Shown: positions 37,609 to 57,131 of the stretch, piece by piece | Layout of the letters: each line of letters opens with the position of its first letter | Position numbering within the stretch: position 1 is the first letter of the stretch | DNA from: Streptomyces violaceusniger Tu 4113 | GTDB lineage: Bacteria; Actinomycetota; Actinomycetes; Streptomycetales; Streptomycetaceae | Direction of reading: 5' to 3' | Length of the DNA stretch: 64,000 nt | NCBI RefSeq assembly: GCF_000147815.2 | Contig: NC_015957.1 | Coordinates: forward strand, 8,308,001-8,372,000 | Position numbers and translations under genes: made by a program | The notes under the pieces: generated by a model | The model's input: the letters and a program-made list of their open reading frames with translations, nothing else | The model's database searches: none | What the model was told of the DNA's origin: nothing

Positions 37609-38188
37609 GGGGTGCCCGGCGGGTCTTGACGCCTGCGGCGGGCTGCTCCCCGCCCCGCCCCTTCCCGCAGCATCGATATGCGGCTCCGCCGCGTGGTGGG
37701 GCCCCGCCCCAGACCCCGGGCCAGGAGCGAAGCCCCCGGCAACGGGCACAGGCGGGCAAGCTGCTCCCCGCCCCGCCCCTTCCCGTTACCAAGGGCTTCG
37801 CCCCTGGACCCCGAGGTCCGGGGGCGGAGCCTGCCACCCGGCGGAGCCGCACATCGGCACAGCCCCGCGCCCCAGGGGCAGAGCCCCTTTGGCAACGGGC
37901 GCAGACGGGCAAACTGTTCCCCGCCCCGCCCCGCCCCTTCCCGCAGCGTCGATATGCGGCTCCGCCGCGTGGCACGGCCCCGCCCCAGACCCCGGGATCC
38001 AGGGGCGGAGCCCCTGCCACAGCCTCTCCGGCGTTTGAGGAGCGGGGTCCAGGGGCGGAGCCCCGGCGGGGGTCCAGGGCGGAGCCCCTGCCACGCGGCG
38101 GAGCCGCATATCGATACCGCGGGAAGGGGCGGGGAGGGGAAAGCATCGATATGCGGCTCGCCGCTCGGTCCGCCCGGCGGCCCCCTGC
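37609..38188. repeat. Second spacer cluster of palindromic repeat modules
   Basis: 580 bp between convergent genes. At least four copies of the spacer module are visible: 37647-37722, 37766-37855 (variant with an inverted second half), 37916-38020, and an inverted copy at 38070-38155. CTCTCCGGCGTTTGAGGAG at about 38024-38042 is another phrase common in Streptomyces spacers. Copies share CCCCGCCCCTTCCCG, TCGATATGCGGCTCCGCCG and GGGGCGGAGCCCC. Apparent long ORFs here are due to the repeat composition. Confidence 0.8.
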
Positions 38189-54419: not shown

Positions 54420-55448
54420 ATGAATCACAGCAGTCGGTTACCACGGTGGGGCGCGCTGGCCCTGACCCTGCTCCTCGCGCTTGCGACCGCGTGCTCGCGG
54501 CATGAGGAGACAGCGCCTGACCACCGGATCTCACCGAAAGCACGGACGTATCTCACGGCGGCCCTGGACCTCGTCCAGAAGCGGGCGCTGAAGCGGGGCG
54601 AGGTCGACTGGCCCGAGATGCGCCGCACGGCGTTTGCCCAGGCAGCGGGCGCCCGGAAGCCGAGCGACACCTACCCCGCGATCGAGGGGGTCCTCCGTGC
54701 CCTCGGCGACGGCCACAGCCGCTTCATCACTCCGGCCGCCGCCGAGCAGGCCTTGGGGACATCCTTGGAAAGGATCCCCGGCCTGGTCGCCAAGCGGCTG
54801 CGGGACGGCCCGGGGTACGTGGCCCTGCCGGGTGTGCAGGGCTCGACGCACACGTATGACACCTATGTGCGTCAGGGCCGGGGCGCGGTGGCGGCGGCGG
54901 ACCGGAAGGGTGCCTGCGGCTGGGTGGTGGATCTGCGCGGGAACAGAGGCGGGAGCGTGTATCCCATGTTCGCCGTCACAGCGGCGATCCTGGGCGACGG
55001 GAAGGTGGGCGCGTTCGTGGGGGCCAACGGCAAGCGCACCGTGTGGACGGTGAAGGACGGGACCCTCGAGGTCGGCGCCAACTCGTCCCCGTGGGCGGCG
55101 GCCAGGCCACTGTCGCGTACCCACCCGGCCGTGGCCGTTCTCACCGACAGCGGGACCGCAAGTGCCGGAGAAGCGGTGACCGTGGCCTTCCGGGGCCGCC
55201 CCGCGACCCGGAGCTTCGGAATGAAGACGGCTGGGGTTCCCACCGGCAACACCCCCCACCGTCTTTCCGACGGTGCGGAGCTACTGCTCACCGAGGTGAA
55301 GGAAGCGGACCGAACCGGGCGCACCTACGACGGACCGATCCCGCCGGATGAGGAGTTCCTCGTCGAGCCCAAGGACATCGGCACCAGCCGCGACCGCGCC
55401 CTGGACGCGGCCGTCCACTGGCTCGGGAAACCACCCGGCTGCCCATGA
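54420..55448 (+). CDS. Lipoprotein S41-family peptidase with a TTA codon
   Basis: 342 aa. Signal peptide with lipobox LATAC (WGALALTLLLALATAC). S41 (tail-specific/tricorn-like) catalytic residues: Ser248 in SGTASAGEAV and Lys269 in FGMKTAG; GWVVDLRGNRGGSVYPM is the strand before the active site. It acts on the outer face of the membrane. No PDZ domain is visible. Codon 7 (54438-54440) is TTA, so full expression probably awaits the bldA tRNA during development. Single gene; the large palindrome follows downstream. Confidence 0.88.
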   Translation: MNHSSRLPRWGALALTLLLALATACSRHEETAPDHRISPKARTYLTAALDLVQKRALKRGEVDWPEMRRTAFAQAAGARKPSDTYPAIEGVLRALGDGHSRFITPAAAEQALGTSLERIPGLVAKRLRDGPGYVALPGVQGSTHTYDTYVRQGRGAVAAADRKGACGWVVDLRGNRGGSVYPMFAVTAAILGDGKVGAFVGANGKRTVWTVKDGTLEVGANSSPWAAARPLSRTHPAVAVLTDSGTASAGEAVTVAFRGRPATRSFGMKTAGVPTGNTPHRLSDGAELLLTEVKEADRTGRTYDGPIPPDEEFLVEPKDIGTSRDRALDAAVHWLGKPPGCP

Positions 55449-56027
55449 GCGGAGGCCCCGCGCGGTGCCGCCTCAGCAGCGCCGCCATGAGAAACGACCC
55501 CTTGGCCGCTCTGCCCCCGGCAGAGCGCCGAGCGGACCCGCCCCGCACTGCGCGACCATGGCGGAATGGCCAACGACATCTCGGTGCGCCGCCTCGACGA
55601 GCCGTCGAGCGACTGACGGTCTCGTCTCGCGCCTTCGGCGCCTTTGAGCATGGGTCCGGCGGGTGGGGGCGCGGGCGGCGTCGCCGGGCGGCGGGCCGTG
55701 GGTGGCAGGGCCGGTGGCGGCTCCCGTGCTCAGGGGCTTGCGCCGATGCCGGACCGCCGGGGGGTGGGGGTACCTCTGGAAAACGTTTGACAAATTAGTT
55801 GCTTCAGATCAAGTGTTTTCGGAAGGGGTACCCGGAGGGGCCGTCAGTCCGGCCGGGTCTCAGCCAAGGCCGGCCGGAGCCGCCACCGGGCTCCAGCCCC
55901 ACCGGCCCGTCGGTCGGCCGCGAGGCCCGCGCCCCCATCCCCCCGCCCCCTGCTCAATGGCGCCGAAGGCGCGAGACGAAACCCGCACCGCACCACCGGC
56001 CCCATCACCAGCAAGCGGCCACGACGG
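55449..56027. repeat. Gene-free spacer with a 358-bp imperfect palindrome
   Basis: 579 bp without a supported gene. Inside, 55622-55979 is one large inverted structure. Its ends are 29-bp inverted repeats with 28 of 29 matches (TCGTCTCGCGCC... at 55622-55650; its complement at 55951-55979), each containing the hairpin GCGCCTTCGGCGC. The arms continue to match inward in blocks (TGGGGGCGCGGGC, GGTGGCGGCTCC, GGGGTACC with GAAAAC). They meet at an AT-rich centre near 55800 (ACAAATTAGTTGCTTC). No transposase or target duplication was recognised. Confidence 0.75.
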
Positions 56028-56231
56028 TCACGCACTTCCCGGCAGATGGTCGAAATCGCCCCGCTTAAGCCCCCGGATAAAGGCAGCCCACGGGGCCGGA
56101 TCCGTGGTGATGACGGCCGCCGGGTCATCGCTCTCCCGGATAAGTATGAGACCGGGAGACGGCGTCGCGACCTCGACGCACTCCGCACTGACTTGACCGC
56201 TACTGAAAGTCGACTTCCGCCAGAAGGACAT
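56028..56231 (-). CDS. DUF397 small protein
   Basis: 67 aa of the DUF397 family: FWRKSTFSSGQVSAECVEVATPSPGLILIRESDDP, then PAPWAAFIRGLKRGDF. DUF397 proteins regularly accompany XRE/DUF5753 regulators in streptomycetes and are thought to modulate them. It begins 15 nt after the XRE gene, in one operon with it. Confidence 0.9.
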   Translation of the reverse strand: MSFWRKSTFSSGQVSAECVEVATPSPGLILIRESDDPAAVITTDPAPWAAFIRGLKRGDFDHLPGSA

Positions 56232-56246
56232 GTCCAGGGCTCCCCT

Positions 56247-57131
56247 TCACAAGGTGTACAGCAAGTGCTGGATGAGCTGGAGTGAATCCCTCTCGGTATA
56301 GCACTTGCGTTCGCCCTGGAGGGCAATGGGCGGGAGAGCCACCGCGCTGAGGTGCTCGAAGGCCGAGTTGTACTGGGTCAGATGCTCGCGGTCCCCCAGG
56401 AACACGGACGAGACCGGGTGCTCGACATAGACCGTGCTCAGTTCGGGGACCCGACTGTCCAAGATGCTGAAAGGTGCTCCCGGCGTCGTCGAGTTGACGT
56501 CCGACTTGAACGCCAGCAACTGAATCCGCACGTGAGGCAACTCGGCCATGGTGACGAGGTGCTCGATCTGGCGGCGCATGACGTCGCCGGGCACGAACTT
56601 CATCAGGAGCGCGGCTTCATGGATGACCGCATGGAAGAGCTGCGATCCGTCGGCCAGCACATGCTGTCGCCGCTGCCGGAACTCGACGCCCGCATCGATC
56701 ACTTGCGGGCTGTCCCGCTGCCCGCTCTCGAAGAGGCAGCGCATGTAGTCCGCCGTCTGGAGTAGACCTGGCACGTACATCCACTGGAACGAGCGGTGCG
56801 CCAAGGCACTCGCCTCCAGCTCCGCGAGATCGAGGGCTCGGGCATTGTGGCTGACTTTGTAGGGCGACCACCACCCCCGACCCGTGGCCCGGCTCAGCTC
56901 ACACAACCCCTCGACCAAGGGATGGCTTGTGCAACCGTACGCCGCCACAAGGGCCCGCAGCTTCTCTTCCGGGATGGCTGTGCGGCCCGTCTCGATGTGA
57001 CTCATATGCGCTCGCCCGAGCCCTGCGTGGGCTCCCGCCTCCGTCGCGGACAAGCCACTCGACTCGCGCAGCTTCCGCAGCTCCTCACCCAACCGTAGTT
57101 GCCGTTGGGTCGGGTTGACCCGCAGCCCCAT
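56247..57131 (-). CDS. XRE-family regulator with DUF5753 domain (WhiJ-like)
   Basis: 294 aa. N-terminal helix-turn-helix (about 10-70: RLGEELRKLRESSGLSATEAGAHAGLGRAHMSHIETGRTAIPEEKLRAL), then a DUF5753 domain (about 105-290: SFQWMYVPGLLQTADYMRCLF, AVIHEAALL, VRIQLLAF, PFSILD, VYVEHPVSSVFLGD). This is the build of WhiJ and its many paralogues, which act with a DUF397 partner in development and antibiotic control. ATG at 57131 follows AAGGGAG. It is divergent from the ATP-binding protein gene. Confidence 0.93.
   Translation of the reverse strand: MGLRVNPTQRQLRLGEELRKLRESSGLSATEAGAHAGLGRAHMSHIETGRTAIPEEKLRALVAAYGCTSHPLVEGLCELSRATGRGWWSPYKVSHNARALDLAELEASALAHRSFQWMYVPGLLQTADYMRCLFESGQRDSPQVIDAGVEFRQRRQHVLADGSQLFHAVIHEAALLMKFVPGDVMRRQIEHLVTMAELPHVRIQLLAFKSDVNSTTPGAPFSILDSRVPELSTVYVEHPVSSVFLGDREHLTQYNSAFEHLSAVALPPIALQGERKCYTERDSLQLIQHLLYTL

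Follow-up and report, generated by a model that had tools for sequence, protein, structure and literature searches.

A lineage-restricted family of intergenic palindromes in Streptomyces with an operator-like core resembling a MarR-GNAT promoter

The palindrome and its family

Between the genes for an S41 peptidase (left) and a DUF397 protein (right; 56028–56231, minus strand, with a gene for an HTH/DUF5753 regulator on the same side), the 64,000-bp stretch of Streptomyces violaceusniger Tu 4113 DNA that we analysed, hereafter the window, carries a long symmetrical structure, and the question is what such a structure is and what it might do. An earlier note, made from the letters of the window, described it as a 358-bp imperfect palindrome, and suggested a MITE-like non-autonomous element, a decayed insertion or a large structured RNA. 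The palindrome itself is well borne out: the predicted DNA fold of 55618–55983 is −147.9 kcal/mol against −99.8 ± 4.3 for 100 shuffles, none of which equals it (z = −11.1). Its length, however, was underestimated, as the symmetry extends over the 366 bp from 55618 to 55983, and it is this whole element that we consider here.

The left tip (55622–55650, plus strand) consists of a hairpin, GCGCCTTCGGCGC, followed by TTTGAGCA, and a recount of its inverted matches to the right tip (55951–55979, minus strand) gave the same figure, 28 of 29, as had been reported. Over 81 nt on each side (55618–55698 and 55903–55983) the complementarity of the arms is 83%, and within them CCGGTGGCGGCTCC and GGAGCCGCCACCGG pair perfectly. 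Inward of the tips, the left arm proper occupies 55651–55757 (plus strand; placed by fold and symmetry, alignment of copies and divergence at the site) and the right, inverted arm 55840–55950 (minus strand; placed by symmetry, alignment of copies and divergence at the site). The operator-like core, a 26-mer (TTGATCTGAAGCAACTAATTTGTCAA; 55787–55812, minus strand) recognised by comparing cores across copies and promoters, is bordered by GGTACC boxes (GGTACCCC) at 55769–55774 and 55827–55832, as it is in most copies listed. GC content is 44% for the core region 55771–55836, against 74% for the entire element and 72% for the window, and the palindrome is therefore AT-rich at its centre only, which agrees with the original description. 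Other copies are homologous for some 20–30 bp further outward, with the consensus CGGGTGCGGNTTTCGTCTCGCGCC.

Immediately to the left of the element lie the final codons and stop of a gene (E P S S D *; 55599–55616, plus strand), which is found on that side in five other aligned genomes (L173, L174, L176, L183 and L184). Position 55599 is also where the similarity of the window to most other genomes starts. The left flank varies between genomes, our own retaining the end of the left gene alone, as if breakpoints gathered there.

The statement that no open reading frame or ordinary terminator explains the palindrome needs some qualification. A codon-usage gene caller places no gene on it, but a mechanical reading does give open reading frames that run across it, and the caller also overlooks the small DUF397 gene. 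A simple scan of 55400–56250 found no sigma-70-type promoter and no T-tailed terminator, hairpins that lack a T run being outside its reach; the palindrome does not have the form of an intrinsic terminator, that is, a GC hairpin and then a T run. Neither the palindrome locus nor the window has a match in Rfam.

A single further 29-nt inverted pair with at least 26 matches (arm offsets 30–399 bp) exists in the window, at 37929–38134, and it belongs to another repeat cluster. In this separate cluster, at 37700–38160, repeats occur in both inverted and direct orientation (GGGGTCCAGGGGCGGAGCCCC, CGGCGTTTGAGGAGCGG, ATCGATATGCGGCTC), among them several inverted pairs of 70–74 nt at 80–83%.

The palindrome is one of many. 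A search of its own genome (11.1 Mb, with a chromosome of 10.66 Mb; the best 40 of 284 candidates were scored) places the family at at least 15 loci, the window locus included and a weak 38-bp match at 2.48 Mb left out, which disposes of the concern raised in the earlier note that there might be no other copy anywhere. The aligned parts of these copies are 67–89% identical. Five copies have a single arm (L011, L012, L016, L017 and L021), L018 and L019 contain tandem left halves, L019 and L020 are without the core, and L020 contains a tandem 47-bp unit.

Two peculiarities of the copies deserve mention. Tandem left halves (L018:3344–4172, L019:3011–3404 and L249:1101–1800) are found in both of the lineages described below, which suggests that half elements have slipped or recombined locally. 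In some copies a different hairpin-like sequence, (T)CACCGAGGCGAGGTGA or ACCGAGGCGAGGTGG, takes the place of the left tip hairpin beside TTTGAGCA; this concerns the groups L010, L080, L094, L119 and L157 and, likewise, L070, L079, L090, L140 and L150, and the feature partly overlaps the end of an ATPase-like gene.

Across the genus, the family was found in eight of 392 sampled Streptomyces genomes (own genome included), and G073 carries a diverged true member. The search, with two candidates scored per genome, gave 11 matches at 1e-8, again with our own included, and more diverged members would escape it; the matches in G079 and G377 proved on reading to be low-complexity sequence and were set aside. 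Of the first 40 relatives sampled, 28 had matches, all of them short and GC-rich as tabulated and none longer than 75 bp. An exact core-pattern scan of a contig collection returned 102 stretches, all in ten Streptomyces (violaceusniger, samsunensis, sabulosicollis, endocoffeicus, rugosispiralis, antioxidans, iranensis, hygroscopicus, niphimycinicus and sp. S465), which we take to represent the S. violaceusniger group together with neighbouring species. Collections of phages and plasmids and IMG/VR held no match, a 145-residue protein query had no match, and among the papers listed by a literature search none dealt with a repeat or operator of this kind in Streptomyces. None of 113 cores lies inside a called gene, with the proviso that the caller misses small genes. 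We conclude that the palindrome belongs to a dispersed family of intergenic elements, restricted to a lineage and each composed of tip, arm, operator-like core, inverted arm and inverted tip.

The copies are unevenly placed with respect to neighbouring genes. After merging by similar neighbours, 15 of 30 sites lie between co-directional genes, 11 between convergent and 4 between divergent genes, against 89, 35 and 106, respectively, of 230 other gaps of at least 150 bp at the same loci. The deficit of divergent gaps (Fisher p = 0.0006) and the excess of convergent ones (p = 0.009) are rough figures, the background pairs being unmerged, and the merging of sites and the gene caller are rough as well, one merged set of 14 being mixed. 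We rejected the idea that copies cluster at the chromosome ends; the record starts at dnaA, and the distance of core sites from oriC is at most about 2.3 Mb in G000 and reaches about 4 Mb in G111 and G180. Judged by eye, their orientation has no consistent bias by replichore.

The core and the promoter of a MarR-GNAT gene

Nothing in the earlier note hinted at a link between the core and the promoter of a regulator gene. In seven genomes of the violaceusniger type (the group), the core pattern with up to two mismatches occurs 13 times in G000 (12 element cores besides the promoter site), 10 in G180, 17 in G375, 15 in G399, 17 in G111, 20 in G412 and 13 in G408, while the reversed pattern, used as a control, has no match in the same seven genomes. 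A variant of the core that lacks clear arms, with GCAACTATRAGRTCAA at its right, begins 59–70 bp before the start of a gene (in G000 at C3:9300490–9301437) whose product, according to Pfam, joins a MarR domain to a GNAT (acetyltransferase) domain. One such variant is present in each of six of the seven genomes; G408 has no promoter site within two mismatches. Another core-like site without clear arms, L207 of G375, is not at the MarR-GNAT gene.

A protein search of 121 genomes of the genus found homologues at 1e-60 in 52, and 30 loci were fetched. The 11 promoters printed from repeat-free genomes all contain a compact palindrome resembling CTGACTGAGTCAG or TTGACTCAGTCAA. Scored with a matrix built from 13 own-genome cores, themselves taken from copies found by whole-element similarity, the promoters of G180, G111, G399 and G000 reach 41.9, 40.3, 39.9 and 35.9, those of G073, G412 and G375 reach 15.2, 13.3 and 9.7, and all others stay at or below −25.4, with a background of at most −15.2. 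The promoters of G000, G111 and G073 were found by way of the protein, and those of G412, G375, G180 and G399 by way of the core pattern, and hence the latter four are not independent. Likeness between promoter and element continues beyond the 26-mer in G000, G111, G180 and G399 (13, 2, 0 and 0 of 5000 shuffles are as good), and is confined to the 26-mer in G412 and G375 (646 and 538 of 5000).

The repeats of G073, found at eight loci, have the same tips and similar arms, and another core. Five of these loci (seven cores) have GCAAGTA in place of GCAACTA, and at L249, L251 and L256 the middle of the core differs yet again. The MarR-GNAT protein of G073 is the closest homologue outside the group (69%), and the promoter of its gene contains GTTGTTCGGGAGCAAGTATGGGGTCAAGCGATTCCGTGAAGG, not the compact palindrome. 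With a matrix from all 10 G073 cores, this promoter ranks first of 30 at 12.4 bits; two group genomes come next at 3.4 and 2.6, the others are at or below −18.4, and the best of 599 background stretches is at −5.6. Taken singly, the G073 cores rank it sole first among the 30 promoters in seven of 10 cases and joint first in the remaining three. A matrix from the seven cores of the main type, chosen after the promoter had been seen, gives it 17.8 bits, against 10.4 and 8.0 for the group, at most −14.7 for the others, −1.5 for the best of 599 background stretches and −13.8 for the best of 2000 shuffles. The three cores of the other type, used alone, place the promoters of G000 (7.0), G073 (5.9) and G111 (0.0) at the top. 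Because there are only two lineages, the joint change of core and promoter amounts to a single contrast.

The regulator differs as well. In G000, G111 and G073, the three repeat-bearing genomes that were aligned, the recognition helix reads T-A-A-H-L-S-R-T, with T, A, H and T at residues 67, 69, 70 and 74 and R and H at 88–89. In the sampled genomes that gave no repeat match, all 27 homologues have D, G and Y at 67, 69 and 70 and I or L at 74, which is the ancestral state of the helix, with mostly P and then S at 88–89. The changed helix is also present in translations from G412, G375, G180 and G399 and in protein P0015. On reading, the gene that immediately precedes MarR-GNAT has a similar end (AELMARASTAPP) in L215, G073, G412 and G375, and the changed and unchanged forms therefore look like orthologues. 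A similar helix is found in S. sparsogenes and S. bingchenggensis (P0008 and P0009). The subfamily with the changed helix (P0001–P0022), whose scores set it apart from the bulk of homologues, extends to these two species and to Streptomyces sp. SAJ15.

A matching sequence thus stands in the repeats and at the regulator's own promoter in six of the seven group genomes and, with its own version, in G073. Our view is that the core is probably a binding site of the MarR-GNAT regulator, a prediction drawn from these comparisons of sequence, and we lean, if not strongly, towards regarding the elements as dispersed operator cassettes of that regulator, perhaps acting as transcription punctuation at gene ends.

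Constraint at shared sites and the competing explanations

If the copies were inert, they should decay where they stand, and sites shared between genomes bear on this. The window site is filled in 11 other aligned genomes, several of which differ in the left or right flank and three of which (L182, L184 and L176) hold part of the element, and also in G375 (L194), where the right flank matches too; in all, it is filled in 12 of 13 distinct genomes searched (16 handles, with three duplicate pairs). G165 has no flank match to the site among the matches listed. Other sites are shared by as many as seven species, and adjoin genes whose readings include prolyl-tRNA synthetase, CobT, nitrilase and thiolase, of all of which Pfam confirms the thiolase only.

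Among five genomes compared at the window site, divergence is 1.4 and 2.1% in the tips, 4.6% in the inner core, 11.3% in the whole core, 11.6 and 11.0% in the arms, and 12.5% in the right intergenic flank, the final 8 bases of which are DUF397 coding sequence. In this set the tips and the inner core alone stand out, the arms and whole core changing at about the rate of the flank. With seven genomes, the values are 1.0 and 2.6% for the tips, 4.8% for the inner core, 12.3 and 10.9% for the arms and 20.1% for the flank. Ten other site groups (53 sequences) give 8.2% for tips, 22.1% for arms and 31.9% for flanks, figures that carry a mild bias, as the groups were fetched via the core pattern and the tip columns were set on an intact-tip copy. 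There are exceptions: both tips of the thiolase group (0.18 and 0.38) and the right tip of the proS group (0.32) are without conservation, and four groups have a flank whose divergence does not exceed that of the arm. In these 10 groups, divergence is lower in tips than in arms and lower in arms than in flanks, and therefore the pattern is not one of plain decay. We conclude that copies at shared sites are under constraint in their tips and inner core, which does not support the suggestion of a merely decayed insertion.

A large structured RNA or an attenuator could also hold such a palindrome together. The very strong single-strand fold, calculated with DNA parameters, would be expected of one, and RNAalifold on 33 full copies predicts 64 pairs, nine of them with two-sided changes. 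The covariation term, however, is −0.47 of −86.5 kcal/mol. A transcribed structure should tolerate wobble pairs on one strand and pair best within a copy, yet in those 61 of the 102 copies tried whose arms could be aligned, wobble pairs number 384 and 380 on the two strands, and a copy's own right arm, ranking anywhere from 0 to 58 among 61, fits no better than the arms of other copies. With Rfam silent as well, we regard this part of the earlier proposal as highly improbable. The same ranks led us to reject the idea that the arms within one copy are homogenised.

The earlier suggestion of a MITE-like element fares better. On this account, the copies are fossils that once moved through their inverted tips by means of a lost or unseen transposase, the core is mere interior, and conservation is incidental or reflects slow decay. 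The family is indeed non-coding, short, multicopy and dispersed, with long terminal inverted repeats and truncated and half copies. Moreover, none of the genes called at the eight copy-bearing loci of G073 (about 1.5 kb per side) is similar to a gene adjoining the copies of the group, and the family has therefore moved or multiplied in the past. No aligned empty site came out of these comparisons. Against this, no target-site duplication was found in 38 copies, though old copies may have lost it, and no transposase is present among the 25 of 93 neighbour families listed (67 proteins from 14 own and eight G073 loci). The own-genome matches, from the best 40 of 284 candidates, included no autonomous partner with the same ends. 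A genome-wide transposase search covering PF01797 found two Y1 transposases, both of which look like ordinary IS200/IS605 types; on reading, their ends are other than those of the palindrome, and a REP/RAYT system was rejected for want of such a link. The account also sits badly with tips four-fold more conserved than flanks, and leaves the match of core and promoter in two lineages unexplained. We consider it unlikely.

Finally, promoter and core could be copies of each other without any binding, being linked by descent only: the promoter either took over the core or was its source, and the repeats are recognised by some other protein or by no protein at all. Copying predicts likeness that extends past the 26-mer, as seen in the four genomes named above. 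However, the core varies between lineages along with the promoter, and copying alone would not predict a helix that differs between genomes with and without repeats. We find this explanation more doubtful still than that of MITE-like fossils.

A putative operator network and its relation to known systems

The operator-cassette reading that we favour would run as follows. The MarR-GNAT protein would bind the cores. At some point an operator may have been captured between inverted, hairpin-tipped arms, and the resulting cassette would have multiplied by a transposition-like process in the Streptomyces branch with the changed helix, leaving copies that are now presumably fixed, selected sites, mostly outside divergent promoter gaps. 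Bidirectional punctuation would be their likeliest job, with the bound protein acting as a roadblock between hairpin tips and released by the regulator's signal; that the elements serve this role is a conjecture, and we entertain it with some doubt. Alternatively, the cores might titrate the regulator.

We put forward a wider idea with considerable reserve, namely that regulator and genome-wide repeat family co-evolve. Helix and operator would have changed together, cassettes would have spread to some 10–20 fixed, mostly gene-end positions per genome, each lineage tracking its own operator, and the regulator would be a signal-controlled, chromosome-wide insulator. Intergenic palindromic repeats are common in bacteria, and what keeps them, and whether the host makes use of them at all, is seldom testable. 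Here, the pairing of the core with one named regulator in two lineages, together with the helix change, brings the upkeep of a repeat within reach of experiments on a single protein and a single deletion strain. If the idea is true, a repeat family can turn into the binding network of a regulator, or capture a regulator, and it may be possible to watch the two evolve together.

Whatever its function, the family is real, restricted to a lineage and in part constrained; it is of the REP/MITE kind, and its operator-like core, which is paired with a host regulator, is unusual. MarR-family regulators of this kind act on their own promoter, and the core resembles their autoregulatory operators in lying just upstream of the MarR-GNAT gene and in its TTGA/TCAA half sites; it differs in being 26 bp long, asymmetric in the middle and multiplied over the genome, where the 11 promoters from repeat-free genomes have the compact palindrome. 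REP and BIME sequences are dispersed intergenic palindromic repeats, few of which lie between divergent promoters, and the present family shares all of these properties, but it is much longer, has 10–20 copies and an AT-rich operator-like centre, and no RAYT-type partner was seen. Bacterial MITEs, for example Correia-type elements, can hold protein-binding sites, and our family is like them in its inverted ends, non-coding and dispersed nature and binding-site-like interior; unlike them, it has shown no target duplication, it is conserved at shared sites, and its core follows one host regulator.
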